In this document: positions 14,551 through 37,349 of the stretch, in pieces | Layout: every line of letters begins with the position of its first letter | Numbering within the stretch: the first letter of the stretch is position 1 | Origin: Neocallimastix lanati (nom. inval.) | Taxonomy: Eukaryota; Neocallimastigomycota; Neocallimastigomycetes; Neocallimastigales; Neocallimastigaceae | Reading direction: 5' to 3' | DNA: 64,000 nt | Assembly (NCBI GenBank): GCA_016946835.1 | Contig: JACVTC010000009.1 | Span: 51,001-115,000 of the forward strand | The notes under the pieces: generated by a model | Database searches by the model: none | Told to the model about the DNA's origin: nothing | The model's input: the letters and a program-made list of their open reading frames with translations, nothing else | Translations under genes and position numbers: made by a program

Positions 14551-17500
14551 CTAAAATTATGTAAAAACATAAAATTATTCAAAGTTTATTTCAAAAGTTT
14601 AGAAAACATTATACAGAAACTTATAATTCTGTATTTTATATCAAATATTTGTTGAAATAGTTTTTATTATACTTAGTATAAAAAAATATGATTTAATAAT
14701 GATTAAAATTATATTTAATTTTTAATGAGAATATTTAGTAATAATTTTTATTATATTTGATATTAATAAAAGATTTTAATAAGAATATTTAATAATAATT
14801 TTTATTATATTTGATATTGATAAAAGAAATTTATAAGAATATTTAATAATAATTTTTATTATTATATTTGATATTAATAAAAGATTTTAATAATAAGATT
14901 TAATAATAATTTTTATTGTAATATTAATAAGAGTATTTAATAGGAAATACAAGGTATTTAGTGACACCCCGTATCATAAATGATACGTGATATTTATTAA
15001 ACATCAATATCAATATTTTATTTTATATGGACCATAACAGTAGGGAGTAATTGACAAAATAATATATTTTAATATTATATAGAATAATATACACAATAAT
15101 AATATTCACTCTTTAATATTTAGTTAATTTACTTTATTCATCAATAAAAATACATTATTTATTATTCATCAATAAAAATACATTAATTATTATTCATCAA
15201 TATTAAATAATTATTAACTAGTTAAAATATAATTAATTACTAAAATCTTTCATATTATTAATGTAAACTAAATATAAAACTAAACTGTACTAATAAACAT
15301 GTTTATGGGCTGAATTATTAATAAACTAAATTAATATTAATAAAAGAACCATTCCTTAAACTATTATTATTTTACTAACTATATATTTACTAAATTATTA
15401 TTAACCAATAAGATTTCACTAAATAATTTCTAACCTAATATTCACTAAATTATGGTATTTATGGTGGTATCGTATCATAAATGTTATGGTTCGGGTTTAT
15501 TAGAAATATTTTAATTTAATTATTTATTTTTTTTTTATTATTATTTTTTTTTATTTAAAATATAATTAAAGTTATAACAAAAAAAAATAAAATTTTCTCA
15601 AGTTATTTTAAAAATTTTCTCAAGTTATTTTAAAAATTATTTTTTTTATATATTTTTTTTTTATTTTTATTATTAATATTAAGTTATTATTTAACAAAAA
15701 TTTTGGATATCTGATAGTATACACTGTCTGACATGCAGCTTGCCTCTTCACGGCGTCATTCCACGCGGGTACTGTATTCAATATAAAATACAGCACTCCA
15801 GAGCCTACTAGTCTAATTATTATGTAGGTTAAACTTAGCCCGGAAATCTATATCCAAGGCTTTGTTAAATAATTTAATTATCAAATGATATTAATTTTAT
15901 TTTTCTAATATTCCCCCGATATCTCCACCATAATTTATGTTATGGTTCGGGTTTATTAGAAATATTTTTAATTATTTATTTTTTTTTCTGTCTGTCTACA
16001 TTTTAATTATTGAAAAACTTATACTTTTTGAAAAAAAATAAATATGTAAAGCCTTTCTACATTTTATCATCATATTTAAAAAAAATAATTTACTATTACT
16101 AATTACTTCAAATTTTATATTAAATTAAATTAACTAATTCATAATTATTTTATTTTAATAAATTTTGTTTATAATTTTATATTATTTTTCATAAACTAAA
16201 ACTAAATTATTTAATATATACGAAAAGAAACAAACAAAATTTAAAAAGATTTTACAGAAAAATAAAGTTATTTTAATCAAGAATATTAATATAATATTCT
16301 TATATTTTATATAAAATAAATTTAAAAACTATAATATATTTAATATTTATTGTTAATCAATTAAGATTTGATTTTGTTTGTGGGGAATAAAAATATTTAC
16401 AAATTAAATTATCAATTTAAAAATAAAATAAAATACTTGAAAGAATACAATTTTAATATTGATACAATATAATAATAATATAATAATATATTTAAAAATA
16501 AAAATAAAATGTTAATATTGATAATAAACACTTTAATAAAATAATAAAATTTAAGGTTATATTATAGATATTGATAATAATAATAAAAATATAGAATTAT
16601 TGATAATATTTTAGTAACTTTTTAATAAAAATATAGAAAAAAATTATATTTATAAAATATTTTAGTATAGAAAATATAGTAAAGTAATATTAAGTAAAGA
16701 ACAATATAATAGATTCTAAAGTAAGTTGAAATTCTAATTAATAATCCATTATATATTCGTTCTTTACTATAAATTCTGTAACAGATACAAGGTAACATTA
16801 AGCCTATCCAATTTTAACGAACTGGGTGCTATAATCACTAGGTTGTTATAGGAATCAATAATAAATAACTGAAAATTAAAAATAAATTGACACAATATTT
16901 GATTATAAATCTTATTTATTTATGGTTAATATTTTATTTATTATTGATTAAATGTTAATTTCGACTCAAAGAGTTAAAATAAAATAAAATACATGAGTTT
17001 TATATTCAAAAATCTATTCTAAATATTACATGATTGGTTATATAATTTAAAATAAAATATATATTTAATTATTATTAAAATATAATTTATCTAACTATTA
17101 ATTGGTTTATCCATTTACTTATTATTAATAATTTAATTAATTAATTAATTAATATCCATTCACTTAATTAAGATTTATTTAGCATTCATTTAATTAATTA
17201 AAATATAAATTTATCTAAATATTAATTATTAATTATTTATTCATTTAATTATTTTATTATTATAAATATTATTTCAAAAGATAAAAAGTAAGATTCAAAA
17301 CAGTGACAACTACTATGATAGTACAAGCATGTACCACTGAACCACTTTAGCAGCCATAATGATTTTTGATACGTGACCACTATAAATATGATATTTAGGT
17401 AGATTCTTTAGGTTAAAGAAATACTTAAATATTATTGGTCAGTAATAATTTTATAATAATAATTTTAAACGGAGAATTCTTTTATTTATAAGTTTATACT

Positions 17501-18018
17501 TATGATAAATTAATTCACATAAATAGCTATTTTTATATTTTATGTTAGTATAGCTAAAAAAAGATATAATATATATTTGAGATAATTAATTACAATATTT
17601 ATATAAGAGAGTAATAATAATAATTAATGTAATAATTAATAATAAATAATAAATAAAGAGAACATTAAAAAGATATATTTATTACTTTATTTTGTATTAT
17701 TGTATGTGTTATTTCTATTTAATATTAGAATATATTATTTTGTCATAATTCCTTATTGTCATTGCCCATAAATAAATATTAATTTAGATACATAAATAAA
17801 ATATCGTATCATTTTTGATAAGAATGTACTAAATAAGGCATTTTTAATTAAAATCATAATTTATTTCTAATACATTATATATACATTATTATTTTTATAC
17901 TATAATAAATTTTTAAAATTCAAAGATCATAAATTAAATCAAAAATTATATTAAACTTTATATATTTTTATATTAAATATTATATTAATAGTAATATAAA
18001 TTTAAAACTTATATTAAC
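14551..18018. other. 3.5 kb of non-coding LTR debris
   Basis: No gene is seen. The phrase TGTTATGGTTCGGGTTTATT occurs at 15482 and again at 15933, each followed by the same AT-rich run, so they are two copies of one LTR start. A PBS-like site (CCCGATATCTCCACCA) lies just left of the second. A GC-richer stretch at 15715-15870 is probably an element leader. CGTATCATAAATG recurs at about 14970 and 15467. A tRNA-like box-A sequence is at 17302-17357. Confidence 0.5.
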
Positions 18019-18226
18019 TGATAACTTTGGTTATTTTGGATTTAGTTTTTATATCAATTTTATTTATTATATTTAGATAGATGAGAGCATTTAAGGCACA
18101 GAGTGCTTTAAAGAACTAATGTACAATAAAATTTCTTTACACCATATTTATAGACATAAAAATGTGGCTTAGACCACATGACACATAATATAAATATATA
18201 TAACTAATAATTCACATAAGTTAACA
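18019..18226 (-). repeat. 3' LTR of the gene-carrying element
   Basis: It is 208 bp long and runs TGTTAACTTATGTG to CCAAAGTTATCA on the minus strand. It differs from the other copy at one C/T site and one A gap. Confidence 0.9.
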
Positions 18227-18236
18227 TTCCCCCTCA
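18227..18236 (-). promoter_or_regulatory. Polypurine tract
   Basis: The minus strand reads TGAGGGGGAA directly before the 3' LTR. It is the plus-strand DNA priming site expected at this place. The copia element at 36.67 kb has the closely similar TAGGGGGAA at the same position. Confidence 0.85.
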
Positions 18237-20670
18237 AACCTAATTGTTTCAAAGAATATAATTTGAGTTTGCAAGAGTACGTGTGAATTATGTTAATTTT
18301 CTAATATTAAATTTTTCTAATGTTTTTCCTAATATCTATAAACTATAAATTTTAACTGTTCTAAATTAATTCTTAGTTTTACATGAATTTAAAATATTTT
18401 CTCAATTTTACATGAAATAAAATTATTTTTTAATTTTACATGAAATATAGTAATTTTACAATTTTTACATAATTAAAATAATTTTCTAATGTAATATTAA
18501 TTATCTAATTGTTAAAATAATTTTCTTAAATATAATTTAATTTAATGATTTCCCCCTAAACAAAGTATTTAGTATTATTACACCTTTAATAATTATTAGA
18601 TGAATCTATGTCATCTTTAATATAAAATAATTATATGGTTTAAATTTACCATTTATATATGATGGAAACCTTTCTCTTGAAGGGTGATATTATACCATCT
18701 AAAATATGTGAATACCTCTGTTATATTGGATTTTACATCACTATTAATTATAATCCGCTTTGTAGATTAGCGCTAACTTTTATATATATTTCGCTTTGTA
18801 GTTTTAGCGATAACTATTAAATATTGCTTTATAGATTAGCATTAACTATTAAAATATCTTCGTTTTGTAGATAAACGTTAACTATTATGTAAATTAGGTG
18901 TTTTTTGAGTAAATTTTTGTTTTGGGTATTAAAATTGAATTAATTTAATATTTAATTATGTTATTTTACATTTAAAATCATAATATTGAATTATTAAATT
19001 ATTTTATATTTCATTAAAAATTTTCAAAGTTTCATTTTTACGTTTTTGTTCTTACTAGATTTTCTTTCATTTCAAGTTAATTAATGTTCAAAGTAATTAA
19101 TTTAGTTAAATTTCAATTTTAAATTAACATTTGTTTTCCTCTCTTTATACTATGTCCCCCCTAAAATCCAAATGTTATAAAATATTTCAATATTTGGGTT
19201 TTCTTTCCAATAGGTATTAATAATTCCTATTTTAAACCTATGTTCTATTACAATACTACTGTATAATTATCCAATATTATTATCCAATTCCCCCCTCAAA
19301 TCTAAATGTTTAAAGAATTTAATATTTGGATTTGAAAGTAATGTTTAAACTGAATGTAATTTGTGAAGATTCAAAACTATTTGAGTGATAAATTGAAGTA
19401 TTGTTATGATTAAATGTATCATAATCTTAGATCTATGTAAATTTGGATATCTTACTAATAGATCGGCTAATATACATTAATAATATAAGTAAGTTAATAT
19501 GAGGAGTCTATCATCCACTTGTATAAGTCGGAGTTATAACATTTCGTAATAGAATGTTGAGTAAAATATATAAATGATGAATCAATGTCATCATTATAAC
19601 AATGGATCCTTTTCTATGAAAGTGTTATACCATTGTGGATGGAATCCTTACAAGTATATGAAGGTATTACACCATCTCTTAAATCAGTAGTATCTATGGT
19701 AAAAACTCATTTCACGCTAAGTTATACCATGATATAAATATTATTGAATATATCCATTTAACGCTAGGTATTCAATTATTAAAATAATATTGTAGAATAT
19801 GCTCATTTCACGCTAAGCATTTCTATCATAATTATGACTTCCTCTTTCGAATATCAGCTTTGGAGTTAAGCAGTAACTAATATTAAATATATTCGAATAA
19901 ATAGTAATATGTATAAATACACTTTTGAGTGAAAAATATGGGTTTAAATTGTATACTTCATGTAGATGCTTTGTGGTTGAGTAATAACCATTATTCAGGA
20001 ATGTTTTGATTATATGTATATGTGTGAAAAAATTAATTATGGAGTAATAAGTAAGGGGTAGGATAATTGAAAATAATTGATTGAATTATTTATTGAGTAA
20101 ATTGTTGTAATTAGAGGGTTTTATATTTTCTCAAATGTGAAGTTAATTTAAAATTATATAATGAATGTTGAATGTTCAGAGCATCTAAAATAATAAATTT
20201 TCTATCTTCTTCTCTTTTATATTATTGATAAACTATATATTTATTTCTATTAATTGTGAAAATATAAGATTATTATAAAGTTTTACGCCACGAATAAAAG
20301 TTAATGTATAGAATTAATCTTTTATTTAAATCTTTAAATAATTGTAAATCTCATAATTGTTTAGATTTAAATTATGTTTATTTTAAATATAAATAATTTC
20401 TTATAAAATGTTTGAATGTAAATAGTTGATATAGTGAATAATTTTCTATCTAAATAAATGTTTTTCTCATATATTAAGCATTTAATGCTTATTTTTCATA
20501 AATTGATATATTTTACTGAATATATATATGTACAAGTTAATTGATTAATAAATTCTTGCTATTGTAATATAATGTTTGTTGATTGAATTGAATGATTAAA
20601 GTATTGTAAATTGTTGTTGATTGACTATAAGTATTGTTAAAAATTAAGTGTTGATGATTGATAATTGTTG
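18237..20670 (-). repeat. Repetitive hairpin-bearing 3' region of the gene-carrying element
   Basis: No reading frame is recognised. Three kinds of repeated module are seen. (1) CCCCC runs followed by inverted repeats, at 19155-19202 and 19290-19334, echo the PPT region at 18227; a further run without an obvious hairpin is at 18552. (2) Four 17-18-nt hairpins lie at 18756-18877. (3) CATTTCACGCTAAG-like units lie at 19708, 19755 and 19804. Two further look-alike stretches with TATACCAT lie near 18690 and 19635. This may be a long 3' untranslated region of the peptidase transcript, a cis-acting packaging region, or remains of the parental element. Confidence 0.6.
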
Positions 20671-23446
20671 TTAATGACAACAGTGGCAACAAAATATATA
20701 AGTAATTGCGCTCCATATGGCGCCTAAACCAACTAATAACCAAAATTTTTTATCGTTATTTAGTTCTTCATCATCATTTTCTTCATCGTAATTATAATGT
20801 TGATCATCATTAAATCTTGTATCTGAGGGGTCATCAGTATCAATTTCATATGAATATATAGTAGTAGTAATTTTTATAGTGGTAGTTGAAGTATTTTTTG
20901 CAGTTGAGGATATTTTAGTTGTAGTTGTTTGTTCTTGATTGGGTTCATCATCCCATAAATATTCTGTGGTTTCATCGTAATTAAAATAATCATCGTCTAA
21001 GTAATCTGTAGGGTAATCGTAATATAAATCATCATTGTTTGGTTCATTATTATTATCAGAATCTGAGTTATTAAAATTATAGCATAATTCTTTTCCATTG
21101 TCTGAATATACAATATTTGAGATTGATGCTGAATCAGTATTTTTATAACCGTAATATGAATAACTTGAACATACGGAATATCCTTTACAAATATGATTCT
21201 TAAAATCATCAATAAAGCAATTACCAGATTTAGATAAACCGTACGTTAACAATATATTAAACAAATAATTCATAACCTCTATATGTATATTCATTTCTAT
21301 ATAATCTACTTTGCAAGAATTGATAGTATTATTAATTACATTTACTGCAAATGTTTTTACCTCATCGATATCCGAGTTAGGTGGCAATATAGTAAAAAAA
21401 TTCTTAACATAATCAATTTCATATCTTGGAACAAACATTTTACTATCTCTTATAATTTTTAAACACCAATAAGCGAAATCTTGACTATTATTACATAATG
21501 AGTTAAAGGAATCTTCTTTAAAGTATCCAAAATATTTGTAGTTTTTTTCAAGTGTTTTAGCAAGTGCATCAGGTGATTTATAAGTATAACCTGTTAAATC
21601 TAATGTAACCCAGTCCCATTCATTTGTATTATTTGGTTTAACAAGACCTCCATTTTTATCCTTTTCTAACTCGTGACTGGATGATGTCCATTTATTTCCT
21701 TTGAATTCAAATATTGTACCGAACTTGTTTGATCCTAAGTAAAATCCAACTTGTCTGATACTCATTTTATCTTCTAAATCTTTAATGTCTTCAGAGTATT
21801 GTAGATGTTCAAATATATTATTTATATATTTAGTTCTTTCCTCAATATTTTGTATATAATGCTTTATATAATCATCCAAATAACCCAAAAAATGCCACCA
21901 TAAAGAATTGATTATATAAGTATAAGATGTAAGTCTTTTGACACCAATTGCAAAAAGATATTCATTGAGGACACATAATTTAACGTCATTATTTCCTGGG
22001 CATTCGTCAGAATACTGCGTAAAGGAATGAAAAGAAGAACTTGTTGGACAGTCTTTTATATTATTACATTTACCTTCACTTGGAAGTTCTTTACCATTTT
22101 TAAGAGTAGTAACAGTTTTAATACAACATTGGATATCAGATAAGCCTGTGCAAGATCCTGGGTAATAATTAGCATTTCCTTTTTGTCCATTCAGCATTTT
22201 GCAATTGTTCTTATTTACGCAAATGCCAAATTCGTTTACAGATTTGACATAACATTTTTCATTTAAATTTCCTTTATTGTTGTAAGCAAGCCAAGTATCA
22301 ATAGACCAATTAGAAACGGGTTCTTGAAAATTATTAACCTTATCCTTACCAGGGTAATCGTCCTGATCAGATACTATGATTGGAAAAGCAGCATACCTTT
22401 TAATTGCTTCCTTAAAAGATAGTCCTTTATACTGTGGATCCCAATCACAATCAGCCTTTATCTTCATATAATCAATAGATTCACCAATAGTATGTCTCTC
22501 AATAAGGTGGTCGAAAAAAAAATTTTTCGAATTCATATTCACCATCAAAAGTGACAGATTGACTGTAACCGTAAACAACTTCAACACCAGCTTCACGTAA
22601 CGGTTTTACTAAACCTTCAGTGGCCATACTGAGACAAGAAGCCATCCAGACTAAATTGTGATTAGCCTTTTTTTTCATATGATTAGCAATAACAGTACCA
22701 TCAACTATATACATGGAACCACTTTTATAAAAATGGTAATATTTACCGTACTTACCATAATCAGCCTTCTTATCTTTTTCGGTAATACCTATATCAGTAG
22801 ATAAGGCAATGTAAGAAGTAGCTCGAGAAGTATGATCTTTTTTATCATCTTTATTTTCAAAATTGGTGCTACCGTGAGTATCGAAAATAACAATAGTATC
22901 ACTTTCTAAAGCAGTGGCGATAGCATCAATAGTAGCTTCATTCTTAGTGTATGTTTTACTTTTACCACCAAAAGCTTCTGCGATACGAGTACCTTCGGTA
23001 GAATATGTCTTCATAAAATTGAAATCAATATCATAGAATGGTTGAAAAACAGAAACTGTGACTCTAGAGGAAACGTTTGAAGAATCATTTGAAGATTGAA
23101 TATTAACATTATTTGTTAAATCAGACTTTTTATTATATTTATCACTATTTTGAATGACACGAATCCTTGGAGAATAACAATTCGGTGTACCATCATTGTT
23201 CTCCCAAGAGAGAAAATTTCCATTACTAGTAAGAGTGTTGTTTTTGTAATCCTCACTTCCTGTTATTATTTCAATTAAGGAATTAATTAATGTAGCATAA
23301 GACTGTTCATCATTTTTGTTTTTTAATTCATTGGTTTCATATTCTATAATGGTCTTCCAGATATCGGATGCAGTAGTTAAAGGTAATATGATGATAATGA
23401 ATAGAATCGTAAAAAATGATTTTAATAATGAGTATGAATTTTCCAT
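20671..23446 (-). pseudogene. Secreted, membrane-anchored clan-CD cysteine peptidase-like multidomain protein (one-base frameshift)
   Basis: It starts at 23446 with a signal peptide (about 27 residues, hydrophobic FFTILFIIIILPL). Residues 180-310 form a caspase/gingipain-like fold: a strand ending in DTHGST (His191) and a second ending in WMASCLSM (Cys271), the His/Cys dyad layout of clan CD, then REAGVEVVYGYSQSV. At the A9 run 22514-22522 the frame changes by one base. The second frame continues from FFFDHLIERH for about 615 residues. It contains two small Cys modules (GICVNKNNC to QCC; GKCNNIKDC to KLC); a papain-like/LRAT-like domain with RQVGFYLGS and NNSQDFAYWC; an Asp/Thr-rich stalk; and a C-terminal hydrophobic helix ending CCHCCH. 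It has no introns and lies inside LTRs. It is not assignable to a named gene. The frameshift may be a sequencing error or a real lesion. Confidence 0.75.
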
Positions 23447-23980
23447 AATATTTAATATATAAAAGATTTTAATAAAGTATTATCTATCTTGAAATTATTA
23501 TTTTCTTAAACAGCATGAAATAATTATTTTACTTATTTCAGTTTAATATTCTTTTTAAACTATTATTTAAATTTAAGTTATTTATTTATTTTGAATAATA
23601 AAATTCAAATTTTATTAAATAAATTTTAAATTTAAATTATTTGTTTGTTTACATTTAAAATTTTAAAATCTTAAATTTTAAATTTAAATTCAGATTTTGA
23701 AATTATATATTTAAACTGTTTATTAAAGTTTAAAATTAATTATATCTCATTTCAAAATAGAGTTATTTTCTTCTTTAACTGTGGTAGTTCATAGTTCGCA
23801 AATTTCGGAATTTCAAGATTTCAAGATTTAGATTTCCATACTTTCAAATTTTCTAAAGGTTAGATTTCGAATGGCTTTTCTCAACTCTTCGGTATTCATA
23901 TCTCTTTTCAATATTTCATGGGGAGTCCTTTACGATCATCTTAGAGATTATTAAGAGCAGCTGATAGTTTATTGAGAGTA
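23447..23980 (-). other. Leader of the gene-carrying element
   Basis: About 530 bases lie between the PBS and the peptidase ATG. No gag frame is seen. The part next to the PBS has balanced composition, for example AGATGATCGTAAAGGACTCC read on the minus strand (about 23925-23944). The part next to the gene is AT-rich with TTTAAATTT repeats. Confidence 0.5.
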
Positions 23981-23996
23981 CATGAGACTCTTAATC
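23981..23996 (-). promoter_or_regulatory. Primer-binding site complementary to tRNA-Lys(CUU) anticodon arm
   Basis: The plus strand reads CATGAGACTCTTAATC, directly adjoining the 5' LTR. This is the conserved anticodon-arm sequence of eukaryotic tRNA-Lys(CUU) (CTCTTAA loop). The minus-strand site GATTAAGAGTCTCATG would pair with it, i.e. a half-tRNA primer as known for some copia-type elements. The same 15-16 bases follow three copia LTRs in this window. Confidence 0.8.
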
Positions 23997-24205
23997 TGAT
24001 AACTTTGGTTATTTTGGATTTAGTTTTTATATCAACTTTATTTATTATATTTAGATAGATGAGAGCATTTAAGGCACAGAGTGCTTTAAAGAACTAATGT
24101 ACAATAAAATTTCTTTACACCATATTTATAGACATAAAAATGTGGCTTAGACCACATGACACAATAATATAAATATATATAACTAATAATTCACATAAGT
24201 TAACA
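23997..24205 (-). repeat. 5' LTR of the gene-carrying element
   Basis: It is 209 bp long, with the same ends as the copy at 18019-18226. It is flanked on the right by the TTAAC target duplication and on the left by the PBS. Confidence 0.9.
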
Positions 24206-24210
24206 TTAAC

Positions 24211-26762
24211 AATATTAATAATAAATCTTATTTTTTTTTTTATTTTTATATTAATAATGAAAATTTGTATTAATAATATTTTTATATATTGATAATTAAA
24301 ATTTATATATTATATTTTTAATTTTTATATCGAAATTTTTATTTTGTATTGAAAAATATTAAATTTTATTAAAAACCTTTATATTAGAACAGTATTTTTT
24401 TTTTATTTTTATTTGAATATTTTAACAAATTGTAATAATAATTATAGTCAATTAAATAAATTATTATTAGTAATATTTTAGATAAATTTTTCTAAAAAAA
24501 AATATATTTTATTAATATTATAAATGTATTTTATCTAAATTATTATAATTAAAATTTTACATAATTGATTATAAAAATCAATTTAAATTTAATAAATTTT
24601 ATAAAATGTAATAATATAAAACTTAGTGGCAAGAACGACTTTTATACCTTATGAAAAAGTATAAATAGTTGTAAATTTTGCTACTAATTTTTAAAAAAAT
24701 CATCAATTAATGAATTAACAAAAATTAAATAAATAAAATAAATTAATTAATAAAATAAATAATAAATAAATAAATAAAATTTGTGTATTCATTATTATTT
24801 TCTATTTAATTTCTCTAAACCTTAACATTCTTGTATGTAAGAATCTATAATTATTTTTAACAAAATAATTATATTTTCTTAGTTTAGTTATAGTAATATA
24901 ACTTTATTTAAATCATATTACTTTTGTACACTCAATTATAATTAATAATTTATTTAATATTATATTAAATATTTATTTAATTTAGTATTAGAAAATTATT
25001 TAGATAAATAGTTTTAATACATTTAAATAAAAATAATAATTTATTTAATCATTCATTTAGATATTAAATTTATTAGTTTAGTAATTTAGTTAAATTAAAC
25101 TATATAATTAAAAAGTTACTCTATATTGTATAATGTATTCTGTATTTTATAATGTATTTTGTATTTTATAATGTATCTTATATTTTGTATAATACATAAT
25201 TTAATATTATTTATATATTGTTTTCCTTATATGTAAATTCATATTTATATGATCGAAATATCTTATATTCTTATTCTTTTATTTTCAATCATTAGATTAG
25301 ATTAACCAATCGGTTAATTAAGGTTTTTCCAATTACTTTATGGAAGTAATTGGTTTTACTTAATTAATGCGATGATCGATATGAATAGAATATCGATCAA
25401 AAGCTTATCTAGGTTTTTCTATCTAATCTTTTCCTAGATAAGAGATTTGTTAAGATTGGAAAGCACTTTTTTAATTATCCTTATTTTTCAAAAAAGTATA
25501 AATAAGACTCTTGAGTTCTCTTTGAGAAATCAAGAGTTATTATTATAACAAATATAATAAATAATAATAATAATAACAATAATAATAAAATAAATACTTT
25601 TAATTATTTTTATATTAATAAAAAATAAATTTTTTAAAAGAATTTCTTAAAACATAAACCAACTCTCTTTTGAAATTTAGTGTTTTGTTTATTATATTTG
25701 CTATAATAAACTCCAAGCAATTAGATTTGAATCATAGGTAAGTATGATTCTTTTCTAATCTTTAATATTAACAGTTAGAGCTAATATTAATGATTAATAA
25801 TTTAATTACATTTTATAATTAAATTATTACATTGTAAGAAATAATAATTATTTATTAATAAATAAATATTTCTTAGTCTTTTGTTAATATAATAACTGAA
25901 TTTCAATTCAATTTCAATTTCAATAATTCAGTTTTTTGAATTTCAATATTAATAAATAATAATATAATAATTATTATTAAATTATTATATTATTAATTTA
26001 AAGAAATAAATGAAAATAAAAATAATAATTTAATTAATTATAAACAATTTTAATTAAAACTAAAATAAATTAATAATTAATATTCTTATAAAATTATAAA
26101 TAAACAAAATAATAAACAATTTTAATAAATTGTAAATAATAAATAAACAAATTTATAAACATTTCAAAATTAAAATTAAATAGTTGAATAATCTTTAAAT
26201 TACTTTTATTTAAAATAATTAATATTTAATTTATTTTATAACTCGACTTTTATAAACAAATTATAATTAAAACTTGTTTATTTTAATACTTTATTTGTAA
26301 ATATTTATAACAATTATTTATTTTATTGTTTATAAAAATTAATAGTTTAAAATTATTGAAAAATATAAAAAAATGTAAATATTTCATATAAATTATTCTT
26401 TATTATTAATAATTTTAATAAATTATTTTATATAGTCTATAGTTGTTAATAATCAAATTTTTATTATTAAAATTTAAATAAATTATTATAAATAATAAAT
26501 ATTTTATTTTATTATTTTATTAATTTTAATAATTATTTTTCTTTTATTAATTTAAATAAAAATTAATAATTAAATAAATAAATATTAATATTAAAATAAA
26601 ACAATTTTTTTTAATAAAACAATTTGTGTTTCTAATAAACCATATTTATATTAAATTTCTTAAATTCTTTTTATTTTTCTTAGTATTTATACTCTTACTC
26701 TTATTCATTTCTGCAAAATTTAATTTTTGTAGATTAAGAATATCCGGTATAAATCACTGATT
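24211..26762. other. Gene-free AT-rich spacer with a hairpin cluster
   Basis: No gene is seen. Most is simple AT sequence. Five stem-loops occur within 25301-25537 and are listed separately. Confidence 0.5.
25301..25537. repeat. Array of five consecutive stem-loops
   Basis: ATTAACC/GGTTAAT lies at 25301-25318. CCAATTACTT/AAGTAATTGG is at 25329-25353. GATCGATAT/ATATCGATC is at 25374-25398. CTTATCTAGG/CCTAGATAAG is at 25404-25442. ACTCTTGA/TCAAGAGT is at 25507-25537, with an inner TTCTC/GAGAA pair. All stems are perfect and the stem sequences are unrelated to each other. Confidence 0.7.
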
Positions 26763-27593
26763 TGCTACGATACAAATAATTTATAAAAAATAAATAAAAA
26801 ATTAAATAAACTATTAAGATTAATTAATAAATAAAAAGAATAAAATATTAAAGTATTAAAACATATAATAATGAAATTAAATAATGTATAAATAACTAAA
26901 TTATTTAAAATAATGTATTAATTGTATTTATTTAATATTGTAATAGTAAACAATTAGATATTTTATTATAAATATTTAAAATTATATTTATTATTATTTT
27001 ATATTTTTATTATAAAATTTTTATTATTCTTTATTATATTTTTATTATTGTTTTATATTAAATATTATATTAAAATTATATTTTATTATATTTTATTATT
27101 ATAAAATTATTATATTTTTTGTTACTATATTTTTATTATATTTTATATTTTTATTTTTACTCCAATCAAATAAATGCTTTAAAGATATAAAAAGAACTAA
27201 GTAAAATAATACTTTAGTTCTTCCTCTTCTTTCAACTTTATTTTTATATTTTTCTTTTAATTTTTCGAGAATGAATAATTAAATATTTTTAATTAGTATA
27301 ATTAAATAATTAAATAAATAAGTAAGTAAAATTAAATTATTCTCTTAATAAATTGTTTAGTTTTGTTTTTTTTGTGTTTTGTTACGATTAAGGATAAAAA
27401 TAATTTTGGTTTGTTTTAAATATTTAGTTTGTTAGGTAAATTAGTTATATTATAGATATAAAATTTTATTAAAATATTTATTTTGTTATTTATATTAGAA
27501 TACTTAAAATAATATTTATTTTTGTTAGAGAAAAATTAAATTTTAATTATTAGAATATTATATTTTTTTTATATAATCTTCAATTCTGTACCA
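26763..27593 (+). repeat. 5' LTR of the plus-strand Ty3 element
   Basis: It begins TGCTACGATACAAAT. From there to about 27440 it is repeated in the split 3' LTR (34149-34332 plus 36861-37349). The right end is placed at GTACCA, seven bases before a tRNA-complementary site; this end is an estimate. Confidence 0.7.
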
Positions 27594-27600
27594 TAAATCT

Positions 27601-27623
27601 TGGCGAGCTATGCAGGACTTGAA
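27601..27623 (+). promoter_or_regulatory. Primer-binding site, tRNA 3'-end type
   Basis: TGGCGAGCTATGCAGGACTT followed by GAA is the complement of a typical tRNA 3' end: a TTCAAGT T-loop, a CCTGC stem, a seven-base acceptor strand, a G discriminator, then CCA. The tRNA is not identified; a G discriminator would suit tRNA-Ser among others. Confidence 0.65.
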
Positions 27624-28596
27624 GATAAAAAAATAATATGAAAATAATAATTAAAAATATTAGATAAATAATAAAGTTGTAGAAAAAAAATTAGCCAATA
27701 GAATAGTTAGAAAATTGACAAAAAAAAATATTTTGGATTATAAATTAAAGTTGGAAATTTTATTAATAAAATTATTGGTAATATAATTAAAGTAATAATT
27801 TTTGTAAATTTTGATATTGGAAGGTTTAAATTTTTATAATTAAATTTAAAATAAATAGTATTTGGTAAATCTTATTTTATTAAGATTATTAAATACTAAT
27901 AAAAAGAATATTTATTATTTTCATTCAAAAGAAAAATTAAAACCAAAAATTATAAAGACTTATATACAGTGTAAAAACCGGTTGAAAATTAATTAGTAAA
28001 GAATTAGGGTGATTCCAATTTTTACTAATTAAGGTTTTTAATCGATCTCGTGAGTGCGTGAATACGTCCCAAAGTAATAATTTATAATCCCCCAGACACC
28101 TCTCCGTAGTTCGATAACTATTCGAGTGTTGGCAGGGTTTTTGAACAAGATCGAGCATTGGAACAATAATAAACTTATATCACCGAAGGTATAAGGTCCA
28201 TTTTACAAATCTTTATAAGAATATAAAAATAAAGTTTTATTATCAATACCTCGAAATAATTAATCAATTCAATAAAAAAAATAAAATTTTTTCATTCACA
28301 CAATTTAATTAATTTAATTTCAATTTATTCAATTTCACTTCAGTATCAGTTTAATTTAAAAATAATTATCACTCTAAATTTAAATTTTTAAACAAGAAAT
28401 TTTCACCTTTATATTATTTATTCATAAAAAAAAATTATCAATACTTTAATTATTCATCCATTAAAAAATTAATTCAAAAGTTCAAACAAAATAATAAAAA
28501 ATATTTGTAAGAAATAAAAAATAATCTTATAATTAACAAAACAGTAAAACTTATTCATTTATCAATCCATCCATCAATATATTCAATCGTATTAAA
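27624..28596 (+). other. Leader of the plus-strand Ty3 element
   Basis: This is non-coding sequence between the PBS and gag. The segment 27985-28200 is clearly GC-richer than its surroundings, with CCCCCAGACACCTCTCCG and TTCGATAACTATTCGAG. It may be a structured leader or an old insertion. Confidence 0.45.
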
Positions 28597-29553
28597 ATGA
28601 AAATATTAGAACTAGAGAGTTTGCTTTCCCCGTCTTAATGAGTACGATTGAGATATTGATTCTTGGTGTGATGAATTCACAAGAATCATGTCTTTAGCCA
28701 ATATCACCAATCCAATGAGTATACACTCCTGGGCAATGGAGTGTGTTGAAGAAAAATTAAGGGGAATAATACAAGATTTATATACAATTGAAGATGGTGT
28801 TCACAATTATCCAACAATTCTGGAAATTAAGGACACAATTGAGTAGGCTTTGGAAATAACACCACAAGAAAAATGCAAACGACTTCAACAGTTAAGAATC
28901 CAGAAAAGAGAAAGCATAAGAAATTTTAATTGGAGATATAAAAAAATGTATAATAATCTCCCAAAGTTTTATCAAACATTTATTACAGTAGAAGATTATG
29001 AGGAATCAATTATTTATAGACCCTACGCAAGATCACAAGTAATTACACAAAGATGTTTGGATTTAGAAGATTCATTTGAAGAATTGCCGAAAGAGCTGAA
29101 GAAAGAAGAAATAACAATAATGAAGTTATAATGACAACATTATATAATACTCATCCATTTTATTACAACAATAATAATTACACAGTTAATCCTTACAGAC
29201 AAACCAAAACAATAAATTATAATTCCACTTTTAACGGAAGACAAACTTACATCAAGAAAAATAATTTTAATCAAAGATATAACAAAGGAAATTATGACTT
29301 TCAAAATAATTATAATAGAATTCACTTTAATAATGATAAAGTCAATAATTATACAAACTATAGTCCTATTACAAGAAAAGAATCAAACTTTTCTAATAAT
29401 AATAATATTAATGAAACAAAATCAACTTATAATAATCAAAAAACTTGCTATAGATGTGGTCAAAAGGGTCATTATTACAATCATTGTCCTTACTCTTTCA
29501 AACAACTTTCAGAAATGGAAGAAAAGAATAGTAATGAATCTTTAAACTTTTAA
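28597..29553 (+). pseudogene. Ty3-type gag with CCHC knuckle (broken)
   Basis: The capsid-like blocks are SWCDEFTRIMSLANI, SIHSWAMECVEEKLRGI and TPQEKCKRLQQLRIQKRES. An in-frame TAG at 28843-28845 replaces a sense codon between IKDTIE and ALEI. A frame change near 29131 leads into an Asn/Tyr-rich spacer and the knuckle CYRCGQKGHYYNHC (residues about 106-119 of the second frame). The start region near 28597 is also shifted. Gag builds the particle and the knuckle binds RNA (family knowledge). The protein is not producible as it stands. Confidence 0.8.
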
Positions 29554-30900
29554 ATGGAAGAAGGAAAACTTCCAACAATCAAACCAAAAATGAAGTTGTT
29601 GCTGTTGCTGTAAGAAATAATAAGAAAACAAATAAAGAAAAGCCTTATAGTAAATCTAAAACAAAAACAAATAAAACTATTAATACCAAGAATTTTCATA
29701 ATATTGAAGTTGAAAAATGGAATTAGAAAATGATGAATTACAAACAAATGAAAACAATAATACGAATGCTAGTTTTGATATCGATAAAAGCAATAGCAAT
29801 AAAACTCAAACTGCGAACGATATTTCAATTTTTCCTATTACAACACGTTCGACTGAAACTGAAAGACTTAATGAAATTGACGTTTCAGTTTTTGCACAAC
29901 TATCTATCAACAAAGCGAAACAAAATGTTAAAAAACAAAAAGAAAAAGAAATCATTGAAGAATCAGAAAATATTATTCAAGAAACTAATTTTAATAAACA
30001 AAATAAATTACCAAGTACACAATTAGAAGAAAGAAAAACTAAAAATAACAATACTGACAAAATAGAAAAAACATTATGATAATGGATGGACAACCAAAAT
30101 ATGATATAACAAATGATCTCAATAATAAATTTGCAAATATTACATTTTCACAATTATTAGATATTAGTCCAAAATTACGAGCGGAATTTATAAAAGTATT
30201 GAGTCTAAAAAGCGCTGTAATAAATAAGGAAACTCCAGAAGAAATCATCTTATCAGTAATGGTTAGAGATGATGTAGCAACAACAGAATGTCAAATTAAT
30301 AATAAAAGAATCGCTTTTTAGATACAGGTGATAGTATAAATATAGTTACCAAACAATTTTTAAACAAGCTAGGAAAAATTAAACCAGTGGGATAAGTAAA
30401 AAATAATATTTTTCAAGTCTTAACAAAAGAAAATGTATATACATAGATATATTTATTAAATGTTAATATTGGAAAGTTAAATTTACACGATATTTTTAGA
30501 GTTATTGATAGTAAACATAATTTATTTGATATTTTAATTGGTTATGGAACACTTAAAGACAATAATTTATTTATAAACCCAATAAATAATTCTCTATGCC
30601 TTATGAAAGAAAATAATTCATGGAAATGTTTAACAAAACTTGGAAAGGAAAATAATGAAGATGTTATTAACGATGATGAAGAAGATGAATCAATAAATAC
30701 AGATGATAAATCTAATTCTGATATTAATAACAATTCTTATTTATACTGCTTTATTAATGAAAATAAAAATGAAAATAATAATAAATTGTTAGAAAACCAT
30801 AATGAAGAATTAAATACTATAAATAATAATAATAGAAAATTAATAATAAAATTGATGAAGATGAAAATAAAAAGGCGAAATTACTACAAAACATTATAAT
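29554..30900 (+). pseudogene. Ty3 protease region with a frameshifted but intact DTG motif
   Basis: An N-rich linker (29717-30079) precedes FANITFSQLLDISPKLR, the same pre-protease motif as ITLAQLL in the 9.5-kb copy. The retropepsin triad occurs as FLDTGDSINIVTKQFL near 30315-30360. It is one base out of frame with the upstream codons, at a T5 run (30316-30320). The later protease strands are present but full of stops. A Glu/Asn-rich linker at 30603-30899 leads toward RT. Confidence 0.7.
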
Positions 30901-32163
30901 TGAAATTCCCAATAAAAATAAAAATAAAGTTAGAAAATTATTAAAAGAATTTTCCACTATTTTTGCAACAAAAATTGAAGAACTTCAACCGACAAAATTA
31001 TTCCCACACAGAATTCATCTAGAAGATAATGTCAAACCAATAAAACAACGATGTTATAGGTTTTCTAGGGCTCAAGATAAAGCACTTAAGGTTGAATTAG
31101 AAAAACTTATAAATAACAAGTTAATTGAACCTTCAAATTCTCCCTGGTCCTCTCCAGTTATATTAGTACTAAAAAAGAATAAGAAATGATGATTGTGTGT
31201 GGACTTTAGGAAATTAAATACCATCACAATAAAAGATGCCTATGCATTACCTTTAATCGATGAAATATTATTTTCAATTGGAACTGAGGTTAAAGTGTTC
31301 ACTACAATCGATTTATTTTCTGGTTTTCATCAGATTCCAATGTATAAAGACGATATACCTAAAACAAGTTTCACCACTATGTATGGCAATTACCAGTTTC
31401 GAGTAATTCCTTTTGGATTATGTAATGCTCGCGGAACCTTCCAAAGAGAAATGAATAAGATATTTCTACCACTTATTGGAATTTGTATGTTTGTCTATGT
31501 TGATGATTTAGTTATATTCTCTCCTTCTATTGAACAACATATAGTGGATCTTAATAAAGTATTCAACATCATTAAAGAAAATAATTTAAAAATTAATTTA
31601 GAAAAATGCAACTTCTTCAAAGAAAAAGTCAATTAATTAGGTCATACTTTATCAATTAATGGAATTTCCTCTATACAAGAAAAAATTCAAGTTATTTTAG
31701 AATGGATTCCACCAAGAAATATCACTCAATAACAGTCCTTTCTTAGTGCAGTCGGCTATTATCGAAAGTTTATATTCAACTTTGCTAATATTGCTAAACT
31801 ATTGTTCAAATTATCTAAGAAAGGTGTTAAATTTATATGGGATAAAGAACAGGATGATAGTTTCAATGAATTAAAAATTAAGTTAGCTTCTGCTCCAATT
31901 TTAACTATGCCTAATTTTGACAAACAATTTATTATCCGTACTGACGCTTCTTATGATGGTATTGGAGGTGTTTTCCTTCAAAAAGATGAAAACAACATTG
32001 AAAAACCTACTCATTTTGTAAGTCGCTCTTTAAAGCCGGCGGAGAAGAATTATGCAATAACAGATCTTGAGGGTACAGCTGCGACTTACTGTGTTACAAA
32101 ATTCAAGTCTTATATTGCTGGAAATAAGTATGAAACACTTCTTTACACAGACCACAAACCATT
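30901..32163 (+). pseudogene. Ty3 reverse transcriptase and N-terminal RNase H
   Basis: RT blocks in order: EKLINNKLIEPSNSPWSSPV, then two consecutive TGA codons where family members have W-R, LCVDFRKLN, FTTIDLFSGFHQIPM, VIPFGLCNARGTFQREMN and the intact catalytic box VYVDDLVIFS. The connection has LGHTLSINGISS (after a stop) and FLSAVGYYRKFI. RNase H begins with RTDASYDGIGGVF, ALT-type FVSRSLKPAEKNYAITDLEG and LLYTDHKPF, where an LTR-like insert cuts it. The polymerase motifs are well kept, so decay is moderate. Confidence 0.85.
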
Positions 32164-33060
32164 TGTAAAGATATCTTTATATCTTTAATAAATTTATGTA
32201 ATACATTATTACATTAATTTATGTATGAAATTTTTGCCACGATATCTTGAATAAAATTATGTAATTTACATTAATTTATGAATTAAAACATATTTCAATA
32301 AATTTATGTAAACGAAAAATCATACATCAAATTTACGTACATGAATTAAATACTTTAAACAATTACTTCTCCTTAAATTAATAATTGAAATTTAAAATTA
32401 TAAATTAGAACTTAAATTATTTAAATTTATATTTATTAAATATGAAATTAAATAATTTAATCACAAAAAATTCGCCAAATCTGTTATTGTTAAATTTTTA
32501 TTTATTTAAATAGTATAGATTAATATTATTAATAGTTTTTAGTTTAATTTTAAATTAGTTAAAATATTTAAATAGTTATAACAAAAAATAGGTATAATAA
32601 GAAATAGTTAATTAAAAAATTATACTATAATTAGTTTAGTTTAAATATTTTATTTTTTTTATAAAAATAATTATTATTAATATTTAAATTGAATATATGT
32701 AAATTAAATTAATTTAATATATTAGAATATAATTAAGAAAAAATATAAATATTGTAAATTTTCTTTAATTGAAAGAATGTAATTGTTATTTTTTATGATT
32801 TTATAGTTCAAAACATAATAAGAACTATTTAATAAAAGATTTTTCATAAAACAATTATTTTAATAAAAGAATTTATTTTATAATATAGTATTTTGTATTA
32901 TTATAATCTGTTTTGACATAAAACTCTTTATACCATTAGTAGGATTATTCAAAAACAAATGAAATAGGTGAAAATAATTATAATAATTTACTTTCTTGTT
33001 ATAAAAACAAATTCATAGTAATTAATAATGAGAATATTTTAAAGATGATGATAAACTGAG
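32164..33060 (+). repeat. LTR-like insertion in RNase H, related to the 8828-9532 solo LTR
   Basis: It begins TGTAAAGAT, as does the minus strand of the 705-bp solo LTR, and shares AAATTTATGTAAAC-type phrases with it. The RNase H end and the linker to integrase are missing on the far side, so the insertion came with or was followed by a deletion. The right boundary is uncertain. Confidence 0.55.
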
Positions 33061-34137
33061 AAAAGTTATTAAGAATCAAGACTAAAAAGTTGATTTAATA
33101 TTAAAAGCACATAAAATTGGTCATGAAGGTGTATTTAAAACCTATAATAGACTTAAACGTGACTATTATTGGACCAATATGATTCTTGATGTTAAGTATA
33201 TTGTAAAAACCTGTGAAAGATGCCAATTATTTAGACCCCAGTCGTTTAACTATCAAACAGAAGACATTGCTACTAAACCAGGATTACCGTTTTCAAGAGT
33301 TGGTTTAGATATTATAGGCCCACTCCCAACAACAAAAAAAGGAAATAAATATATATTAATCTTAGTTGATTATTTAACAAAATGGGTAGAAGCAAAACCA
33401 AAACAAAATATTGAATCCGATGATGTAATTGAATTTTTATCTGATATTTTTGCTCGATTTGGTATACCTGAAGTAAGCGTAACTGATAATGGTCCACAAT
33501 TCTGTTCTGATAAAACAAAAGCATTTCTTGATTTATATGGCGTATTCGTTCAATTTGTTGCTACATATCATCCTGAGTCAAATGGTGAAGTTGAAAACCG
33601 TAATAAAGAAATTGGAAAATACTTAAGATTATTATGCAACAAAAACACACTTCTATATGGGATGAAATATTACCAAGTGCGTTATGGGCTTTAAGTACTT
33701 GTAATAATGAAAAGACAAAATTTTCAAATTTTGAATTGTTGTATGGTCGTTGTGATCTTCAACCATTTGAATTAATGTTGAACTTAGACAAAAAGGAAAA
33801 TTATGAAAGCGAAGATGAATTTTTAAATAGAAGGTTTACTACTCATTATAAATGGATAAAAGAAGCCATAAACAATATTCAAACTGCAAATAAAATATGG
33901 GAAGATAGAAGAAAACAAGTTAAAAGACTTAAAGCAGAATATAAACCTGGTGACTTAGTATTAGTTAAATATATAAATAGAAGAAAACTTGATCCTTATT
34001 TCTTAGGACCAATGAAAATAGTTAAAAAACAATTTAACACAGTAACGCTTTGTGATTCAGTTACTAATGAAATAGCCGAAAGAAATGTTCATTTAAAGAA
34101 TATCATTCCGTATAGATTATGTGAAATTGAAACTTAA
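33061..34137 (+). pseudogene. Ty3 integrase (frameshifted)
   Basis: The zinc-binding H/H/C/C segment is AHKIGHEG to CERCQLF. The catalytic core has GLDIIGPLP (Asp), VTDNGPQF (Asp) and HPESNGEVENRNKE (Glu), so all three D,D(35)E residues are intact. A frame change near 33630-33680 separates them from TSIWDEILPSALWALST. The C-terminal SH3-like domain has YKPGDLVLVKYINRRKLDPYFLGPMKIVKK. The stop is at 34135-34137, eleven bases before the 3' LTR. No chromodomain is seen. Confidence 0.85.
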
Positions 34138-34675
34138 GGGTGGCATCATGTTACAATACAAATAATAAATAAAAATAAATAAAAAATTAAATAAACTATT
34201 AAGATTAATTAATAAATAAAAAAGAATAAAATATTAAAGTATTAAAACATATAATAATGAAATTAAATAATGTATAAATAACTAAATTATTTAAAATAAT
34301 GTATTAATTGTATTTATTTAATATTGTAATAGTGTTAAAATATAGTAAATAAAATTATACATTATGCTTTATTATAAAATAAAATTAATATAAAATACAT
34401 GTAATAATTATTATTCAGAAAATGATTCTTCTTTATTAATAAAATATTATTAAATAAGTAAAATATATAATATAAAATAATTAATCTGAGCTTCACTCAT
34501 TGACTGATTAAGAGTCTCATGAAAGAGACCATAAATATATTTATATAATATTATATATTTCTTTAAAAAAATTACTATATTCAAATTTAAATTTATTTTG
34601 TAAAATAAATAAATATATAATTAATTTATTAAATAATTAAATATAAAAGTAAATAAATAAAATTTTATTAAAAAT

Positions 34676-35422
34676 TTGATGTTTAAAATCATGGGAAGAA
34701 AAAGAACTCAAGAAACAGAAATCTCCGAAGTTAATTCCACTTCCTCTTCATCAACCCCTAGTATTAATAAAAATGAAAACATTAATAAAGATGAGGATAA
34801 TGTTCCTCAAAATGAAATTTTATTTCAAAATTATGTCTATAAAGATTTATTAATTAAATCCGTATTTAATTACAAAGATTTTAAATTAAATACCTCAAAT
34901 TTTGAAGATTGGTTTATTGAATTAAAACGTCATCTAATTGCACAAGATTACGATGAATATATTGAAAAAGAATTTGTGTATGATGTCATGACTAGAAAGC
35001 AAATAAAATATGATAACGCAGATCAATCAATAATATCTAGTAACTTAGACTTAGAAACAAAGGCTTATCTAAAAGGTTGTAGGACTGCATATCAAATGAT
35101 TGATAGACTTAAAAAACAATTCTACAAATCAGGAGAATCCTTATTAAATTTATTAATGCAAAAAATCAAAATTTTAGAAATTAATAATAACAATTATATT
35201 CTATATCTCAATGAACTAAAAAATCTATTTGAACAATATGATATGGAATGTGTCAAACTAAATAAAAACAAACTAACTGAAGAAAGTAAAATCATTTATG
35301 CTTGCGCTAAATTTTATAAATTAACTTCGAACTTATATAATATTCCAATTAAAACTTTTAAATCTGATAATGGAACTGAATACATAAATAAAAATGTTAC
35401 TTCGTTTTTAAATAATCACTGA
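34676..35422 (+). CDS. Copia gag fused in frame to an integrase fragment
   Basis: The start is MMFKIMGRKR at 34676; the second Met (MGRKR, 34691) is equally likely. Residues about 50-215 are a Ty1/copia gag: FEDWFIELKRHLIAQDYDEY, AYLKGCRTAYQMIDRLKKQF, LNELKNLFEQYDM. After about residue 222 the protein runs directly into the integrase core at KTFKSDNGTEY (second catalytic Asp), with no zinc knuckle, protease or first catalytic Asp. An in-frame deletion therefore joined gag to integrase. A TGA follows at 35420-35422. Confidence 0.8.
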   Translation: MMFKIMGRKRTQETEISEVNSTSSSSTPSINKNENINKDEDNVPQNEILFQNYVYKDLLIKSVFNYKDFKLNTSNFEDWFIELKRHLIAQDYDEYIEKEFVYDVMTRKQIKYDNADQSIISSNLDLETKAYLKGCRTAYQMIDRLKKQFYKSGESLLNLLMQKIKILEINNNNYILYLNELKNLFEQYDMECVKLNKNKLTEESKIIYACAKFYKLTSNLYNIPIKTFKSDNGTEYINKNVTSFLNNH

Positions 35423-35977
35423 ATTAAATTTATTCACCCTATTCCTGGATATCCTCAACAAAATGGTCGTACTGAACGGTTAAATCAAACAATAAATAAT
35501 TGTGCTAAAGCACTTTTAAATTCTGCTAAATTACCTCTTTATTTTTGGGATTCTGCCGTTCAATGTGCTGTCTTCTTTTATAATTCAAATCCTCATTCTA
35601 GTATTAATTTTAAAATTCCTAATGAACTATTCTTTAATAAACCTGTTGATATTTCTCATTTTAAAGTATTCGGTTGTAAAGAATTTTTCTTTAATAACCA
35701 TAAAACAAATAAATTTGAAAATAATTCGAAACAAGGTATCTTTCTTGGTTATCCTGAAAATTCTTCTGGGTACCGAATTTTAGATATTTCTACAAACTCT
35801 ATCATTACTGCTAGAGATGTTTATTTCATGGAAGATATTCCTGGTACTATTGACACTTCCTTTTTCTCATCGAAAACTATTGATTCTTTATTCATTTACT
35901 CAAATTTATCGATTGAGGGGGAAAGTGCAAATATACAATCGACAACTTCTAATATCAATAATAATAATAATAATAAT
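35423..35977 (+). pseudogene. Copia integrase remainder
   Basis: It continues in the same frame after the TGA: YPQQNGRTERLNQTINN with the catalytic Glu, LYFWDSAVQCAVFFYN, NELFFNKPVDISHFKVFGC and GIFLGYPENSSGYRIL, typical of copia integrase and the GKGY-type region before RT. It ends in an Asn run where a second LTR begins; reverse transcriptase and RNase H are absent. Confidence 0.8.
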
Positions 35978-36188
35978 TGTTAGAATATGTGAAATGTATG
36001 AAATATAAGCTTCAAATGTATTGAAACATATTGCAATATGAATAATGTATAAGCCACAATGTATTAATATAAAAGCATTTAATTTAGAATAATTAAGTGC
36101 TAGTAACTCTTTATCATATAATATATTAATAAAATTGACATAATTATAAACCATAAATTCAAAACTCTTAACAGATTAAGAGTCTCAT
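35978..36188 (+). repeat. Second copia LTR and PBS inside the first element
   Basis: LTR 35978-36173 (TGTTAGAATATG to CTTAACA) is followed by GATTAAGAGTCTCAT at 36174-36188. The same LTR family, with the same downstream phrase GCCGGAAACA and ATTATGTCAAAAAAA, is at 41459-42025. No matching 3' LTR of this type is seen before the outer 3' LTR. Confidence 0.75.
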
Positions 36189-37349
36189 CTGACTCTTAAA
36201 AAGATTCATAGCAAAAGAATCTTTTGCCGGAAACAATATTATGTCAAAAAAAAAAAATATATATATATATAATTGAATTTTAAATTATGATAAAGGTTGC
36301 TCATTATGTCAATTTTTAAGATGACTAATAAAACTGATAACTGATCAAAATGATCAAGACAGAAAAATTGAAGAAACGTGTAAAATATAAAACTGTTGAT
36401 AAAAGAAGTTATTTCAGGATAAGTAAAACTCAAAATAAAAAATATAAAAATATTTATTTAAAAAGAAAAAACACGTATAAACGTATATAAAAGAAAATTA
36501 TATATCTTCATACTAGAGACTCTTAATTGAAATTATAATTTGATATTTTAACAAATAAGCTTTTGGATATAATTTTTGATAATTAAAATATAATATAAAA
36601 ATAAAAAAAAAAAATAAAATAAAAATATAAATAAAAATTAATAAAATAAAATAGTTCTAATAAAGACATAATGTAGGGGGAATGTTAAAATATAGTAAAT
36701 AAAATTATACATTATGCTTTATTATAAAATAAAATTAATATAAAATACATGTAATAATTATTATTCAGAAAATGATTCTTCTTTATTAATAAAATATTAT
36801 TAAATAAATAAAATATATAATATAAAATAATTAATCTGAGCTTCACTCATTGACAAATAGTAAACAATTAAATATTTTATTATAAATAATTAAAATTTTA
36901 TTTATTATTATTTTATATTTTTATTATAAAATTTTTATTATACTTTATTATATTTTTATTATTATTTTATATTAAATATTATATTAAAATTATATTTTAT
37001 TATATTTTATTATTATAAAATTATTATATTTTTTGTTATTATATTTTTATTATATTTTATATTTTTATTTTTACTCAATCCTATAAATGTTTTAAAGATA
37101 TAAAAAGAACTAAGTAAAATAATGCTTTAGTTCCTCCTCTTCTTTCAACTTTATTTTTATATTTTTCTTTTAATTTTTCGAGAATGAATTATTAAATATT
37201 TTTAATTAGTATAATTAAATAATTAAATAAATAAGTAAAATTAAATTATTATCTTAATAAATTGTTAAGTTTTGTTTTTTTTTTTTGTGTTTTAAGGATA
37301 AAATAATTTTGGTTTGTTTTAAATATTTAGTTTGTTAGGTAAATTAGTT

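Follow-up and report, generated by a model that had tools for sequence, protein, structure and literature searches.

The window is a stretch of 64,000 nucleotides of Neocallimastix lanati (C752:51001-115000 of a 199-Mb genome in 762 contigs), and its GC content is 10-30% in 2-kb steps. It was found that an LTR element lies on its minus strand (24205 to 18019), flanked on either side by a TTAAC duplication. The features of the element are listed in Table 1. Its LTRs align with 207 matches, one mismatch, and one gap column (99.5% identity), and the direct repeats at the LTR positions (168 nt at 99% and 44 nt at 100%) are far beyond chance. The target-site duplication (TSD) is a perfect, 5-bp one. 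The primer-binding site (PBS) behind the 5′ LTR, GATTAAGAGTCTCA, is complementary over 14 nt to a tRNA-Lys(CUU) gene that ARAGORN recognised in the same genome. Since the complementary part is nt 27-40 of the tRNA, the primer would be a tRNA cleaved behind its anticodon loop, which is the case for Drosophila copia.

Table 1. Features of the window element (window positions)
Feature	Position	Strand	Remarks
5′ LTR	23997..24205	-	209 bp, TG...CA ends
3′ LTR	18019..18226	-	208 bp
Target-site duplication, 5′ side	24206..24210	.	TTAAC on +
Target-site duplication, 3′ side	18014..18018	.	TTAAC on +
Primer-binding site (PBS)	23983..23996	-	complementary to nt 27-40 of tRNA-Lys(CUU)
Non-coding leader	23498..23996	-	common to other copies; common part stops at AAATAA
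First cargo frame	22499..23446	-	315 aa; signal-peptide-like start and peptidase-like domain
Second cargo frame	about 20671..22605	-	about 640 aa; overlaps first frame, other frame
Cys-rich region	21970..22269	-	matches part of P0028 at 66% identity (100 aa)
PPPDE/LRAT-like domain	21373..21963	-	50% identity to P0024
Tail	20674..21033	-	acidic and Thr-rich part, hydrophobic segment, CCHCCH; common to other copies
3′ non-coding module	18236..20670	-	common to other copies (genome comparison)
Polypurine tract (PPT)	18227..18235	-	sense GAGGGGGAA; precedes 3′ LTR

The paired LTRs with TG...CA ends, the 5-bp TSD, the PBS, and the PPT are those of an LTR retrotransposon, and the element is without the gag and pol coding sequence of an autonomous one: no such frame or Pfam match was found in its interior. 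Four ORFs reach 60 aa in 17000-25500: the two main ORFs, plus a 68-aa and a 71-aa ORF that read the same strand in different frames. The two main ORFs have no Pfam match at E≤1. These results confirm a young LTR element without gag/pol on the minus strand. A sequence-only reading of this DNA had described the LTRs of 209 and 208 bp (one mismatch and one gap), the TTAAC duplication, the PBS, the PPT, and the absence of gag/pol, and all of this was borne out, with the TSD, PBS, and PPT at the exact borders. Three PPT-like purine runs (sense) exist in the 3′ module, at 18227, 19157, and 19291; the inner ones are also present in other copies, and central PPTs are possible.

The cargo of the window element is one intronless sense region of 2.8 kb, which a single interruption, at a homopolymer around 22.5 kb, splits into two overlapping frames. 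Of the single intronless sense gene of about 2.8 kb proposed earlier, the orientation and the lack of introns stand, and the single frame does not. The first frame has 22 relatives at E≤0.01. His191, Gly192, and Cys271 are conserved without exception in 20 aligned sequences; a further relative, P0022, with F at the Cys271 position, was left out of this alignment. The His-Gly then Cys dyad of clan CD cysteine peptidases is present in the frame. The predicted structure of the domain (pLDDT 76.6) has a likeness to CHAT and caspase-like folds that is moderate at best, and the assignment to clan CD-like peptidases is a fair lead, not proof.

Where do the relatives of this domain occur? Among one genome per prokaryote species, a pattern matched 191 stretches, 154 of which encode relatives. 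The 79 named loci kept are all Clostridia-type (Oscillospiraceae, Ruminococcaceae, Clostridiales, Christensenella, Lachnospiraceae, and Bacillota), and many are from rumen or other gut sites. The best identity to the first frame is 46% over residues 26-311, or 53% for one shorter stretch. The GC content of the eight loci checked is 55-65%, as compared with 31% for their counterpart in the window element. A tree of 97 sequences, rooted at the midpoint, places the first frame inside the set on a long terminal branch, adjoining the metagenome protein P0018 (support 0.875; 0.557 for the next clade). The peptidase-like domain therefore looks to be of bacterial type, judging from sequence comparison. 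In the whole-genome search the domain had one match, which is itself, and the suggested amplification of a peptidase gene in this genome was not observed.

At its start, the second frame carries on the bacterial-type homology, as judged by eye in comparison with P0012 and P0014, and the only named relative of this frame is from Anaeromyces robustus. P0024 scores 17.9 of 29.2 bits, below the cut-off, against the PPPDE (Peptidase_C97) Pfam profile, and neither the window frame nor the L065 frame has a match to it. P0024 has His and Cys at what I presume to be the catalytic places, where the window domain has Gln and Ser; by these presumed positions the PPPDE catalytic residues are absent from the window domain. 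I infer that the window cargo is chimeric, with a peptidase-like domain of bacterial type joined to a fungal secreted PPPDE-like protein.

The window LTR has at least 40 matches in the genome (40 scored of 55 candidates), and eight close copies of the element were found besides the one in the window. The copies are named here after their contigs. LTR pairs were compared in 10 elements, eight of this subfamily including the window element and two of a second subfamily, and are 96.9-100% identical. The pairs are 100% identical in C747, 99.1% in C757, 98.6% in C490, 97.8% in C87, 97.3% in C66, and 96.9% in C752b as well as in C115a, which has a shortened 5′ LTR. C115b, the ninth close copy counting the window element, showed the 5′ LTR only. 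The TSDs are perfect for the window element, C490, C757, C747, and C66, but those of C490, C747, and C66 sit in simple repeats and carry little weight; those of C87 and C752b match in four of five bases. The LTRs at C115:133276 and C132:71496 are common only from about position 80-85 onward and differ upstream, as might result from an exchange of the U3 part.

What the copies have in common is the leader (79-98% identity) and a 3′ module made up of the membrane-tail coding part and 2.4 kb of non-coding sequence. The 3′ module, as a query of 2443 bases, has at least 94 matches, with the best 40 of 623 candidates scored. Its identity is 97% in C490, 96% in C115, 96% in C757 (two pieces), 94-95% in C747 and C66 (two pieces), and 96% in C87, with one piece at 86%. 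Leader homology to the window ends at position 708 in six of nine comparisons (C490, C757, C115a, C115b, C66, and C747), at 360 in C87, and at 636 in C752b, and it is interrupted in C610. In six sequences compared at this point, the exit from the shared leader comes right after AAATAA. Homology resumes on the 3′ side at 21079 (C490 and C757), 21018 (both C115 copies), 20871 (C66, C747, and C87), or 20822 (C752b). Thus, the ends are constant, LTR-PBS-leader on one side and membrane-tail coding part, 3′ non-coding sequence, and PPT-LTR on the other, and the middle is variable.

The middle of C490, C757, C115a, and C115b has a PPPDE-like stretch without the front part and a second, unassigned domain. 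C66, C747, and C87 have leucine-rich repeats (LRRs), and both frames tested (C66 and C87) match an LRR Pfam profile above the cut-off. Among the nine close copies, of which all but C752b could be given a cargo type, only the window element has the peptidase-like and PPPDE-like cargo. Young insertions at different places carry different protein genes between the same ends. As in gene-transducing (Bs1-like) elements, coding cargo lies between shared ends in copies with their own TSDs. The earlier proposal of a captured gene being spread is borne out for coding cargo between LTRs elsewhere, in copies with their own TSDs, but not for the peptidase gene, which is single-copy. Copies with these LTRs and without the gene, named in advance as contrary evidence, do exist and speak in part against the earlier reading, but they have other genes in the slot. 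A diverged relative on C68 (L019 511-825 and L040 3476-3730) seems to hold a further cargo frame with a DYPTDY-type tail start and no Pfam match above the cut-off.

A second LTR subfamily (TGTTAGAATATG...) has part of the 3′ module in common with the window subfamily. The element at C752:1737789-1742280 has the TSD ACTAT and LTRs that are 99.1% identical; its cargo is an uninterrupted PPPDE-like frame, 357 aa stop-to-stop, without the window-type tail. The LTR pair of the other second-subfamily element is 98.6% identical. C49 and C323 have another cargo, which is 243 aa long and has an anchor tail of 70 aa that is read in a different frame.

Is there a donor gene for any of these cargos? The second frame has 29 matches in the genome (41 candidates), and all matches to its PPPDE-like part lie in the elements described above. 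The Cys-rich part has a 33% match at C65. The second domain of the C490/C757/C115a/C115b cargo has eight matches in five places, the four copies and C40 (48%), and tail matches occur also at C721, C760, and C40. Apart from these weak matches at C65, C721, C760, and C40, the genome search identified no cargo donor outside LTR elements, and it identified no intron-containing donor for three cargo domains. The search reads exon by exon, so it could overlook a donor that is diverged or split into small pieces. The proposed capture of a spliced host mRNA is thus unproven, in view of this result and of the bacterial look of the peptidase-like domain.

Most of the amplified cargo frames are broken. 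The broken LRR cargo of C66 matches that of C747 at 99.8% over 1317 bp, and both have a stop that is absent from C87. A stop is found at the same codon in C490 (TAG), C115a (TAG), and C115b (TAA). Since copies with broken cargo moved recently (the LTRs of C747 are identical), intact cargo is dispensable in cis. The codon ratios of cargo between copies are 0 to 2 where defined, with 0-2 synonymous changes per pair, and constraint is not apparent from these few changes. Those of the tail are 0.22 to 2.46; the ratios of the window element against C490 and C757 (0.23 and 0.22, on three and five synonymous changes) lean towards constraint. These data permit no firm statement about selection on the cargo or the tail. 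The idea of a vehicle amplifying enzymes is doubtful, given the broken frames and the codon counts.

Copia reverse transcriptase is found in at least 150 places in the genome (150 scored of 2891 candidates). On C599, a copia reverse transcriptase piece (RVT_2, above the cut-off) runs directly into the 3′ module. On C112, a copia RNase H-like piece, recognised by eye and without Pfam support, lies before a related LTR. A copia-type remnant at window 34292-36854 has the same tRNA-Lys PBS as the window element. From the abundance of copia reverse transcriptase, the C599 junction, and the remnant, it is likely that the window family is moved by copia proteins in trans, as the sequence-only reading had supposed; an intact copia element with window-type LTRs, the expected partner, was not found among the matches listed. 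The remnant has two 213-nt LTR-like repeats (91%) and an SH3_retrovirus match above the cut-off (integrase-end homology), no reverse transcriptase is seen in its frames, and a single second-subfamily LTR with PBS lies inside it, at about 35978-36178. A second LTR-type element at window 26833-34333 is bounded by identical 115-nt repeats and has an RVT_1 frame (E 7.4e-30) as well as stops in its frames. Near the related LTR on C112 (L062, C112:284400-290400), there are frames that, by eye, seem to encode a chitin-binding and a subtilisin-like protein.

These elements probably form a non-autonomous LTR family with two constant ends and a cargo slot that is refilled by template switching, copia proteins acting in trans. 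The RNA would be primed by the tRNA-Lys(CUU) cleaved behind its anticodon loop, and proteins from copia elements would package it and copy it in trans. A change of cargo may come about through two template switches during reverse transcription, one in the leader near AAATAA and the other within or close to the part that codes for the tail. The cargo would then be a passenger whose intactness is unnecessary for movement. Several points weigh against this explanation. Three of nine leader comparisons end elsewhere than at 708, and DNA-level recombination between copies could swap the middle too. Five of the TSDs sit in simple repeats (C490, C747, and C66) or match in four of five bases (C87 and C752b), the matches listed hold no intact copia partner, the Pfam search is blank for the C112 piece, and the two low tail ratios lean towards constraint. 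A broader reading takes the family as a retroelement platform of anaerobic fungi, in which a constant leader and, in this subfamily, a constant membrane anchor repeatedly take up new secreted domains, some of bacterial type, via template switching during reverse transcription; I consider it rather doubtful.

A one-off capture, in which the spliced host mRNA of a secreted peptidase entered one LTR element and was moved in trans like Bs1, is unlikely. The gene is intronless, its peptidase part is single-copy, and the second frame has relatives among fungal secreted proteins, but other copies with the shared ends have other genes in the same slot, the genome search identified no donor, and the relatives of the first domain are bacterial. 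It is quite improbable that the cargo is a long-standing gene of the family itself, env-like or for an accessory membrane protein, and that the middles are its diverged or recombined versions. In its favour are the occurrence of the anchor tail in older, diverged loci, the different tail in the second subfamily, and the PPPDE-like domains in both subfamilies. Against it, the middles (LRR, PPPDE-like, and peptidase-like) are unrelated in sequence, and cargo decay does not stop movement. The genome is repeat-rich, and the LTRs of two separate insertions might by chance flank an unrelated gene. This is hardly credible in the face of the exact-border TSD, the PBS, the PPT, the LTRs with one mismatch and one gap, and the recurrence of this layout elsewhere in the genome.

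Plants are the best-known setting for gene capture by LTR elements, and many of the examples there are isolated ones. Elements of the TRIM and LARD types have LTRs, a PBS, and a PPT without gag/pol, need proteins in trans, and have mostly non-coding interiors. The window family resembles them in having LTRs, PBS, and PPT without gag/pol, but differs in that its slot is occupied by a protein gene. According to PMC13317346, gene pieces are captured by LTR elements, with maize Bs1 as one of the earliest examples, and template switching has been described as a way in which this happens. Like Bs1 and other gene-transducing plant LTR elements, the window family has coding sequence not its own and is possibly moved in trans. 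Unlike Bs1, it has several copies with different cargos and constant ends, a bacterial-type domain, and no host donor identified. LTR elements of bdelloid rotifers carry extra ORFs besides their own genes (PMC5408684), whereas the window element is without gag/pol. Fungal Helitrons have captured genes and cross-kingdom domains, as stated in PMC4289320; the window element is likewise a fungal mobile element with captured gene parts, but it is an LTR element, and Helitrons are DNA elements with another mechanism. Acquired bacterial genes are already known in anaerobic fungi, as PMC6712302 reports. In the portions of the literature returned by the search, there was no report of such LTR elements in anaerobic fungi.

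What stands out here is that, in one genome, several protein genes occupy one slot between constant retroelement ends. The copies are young enough to date and compare, and a bacterial-type domain with no other copy seen in the genome sits inside a retroelement. It can thus be tested directly whether genes that gut fungi acquired horizontally are shuffled by retroelements. If so, there may be an RNA-based route that shuffles and tries out acquired and home-made domains in a fungal genome.

I also found that the tRNA-Lys(CUU) sequence has 85 matches in total at ≤2 mismatches, PBS sites counted in. It recurs at intervals of a few kb, in either orientation, on short contigs (C188, C251, C252, C266, C304, C353, and others), and on C188 a tRNA-Ile gene adjoins the tRNA-Lys(CUU) sequence.
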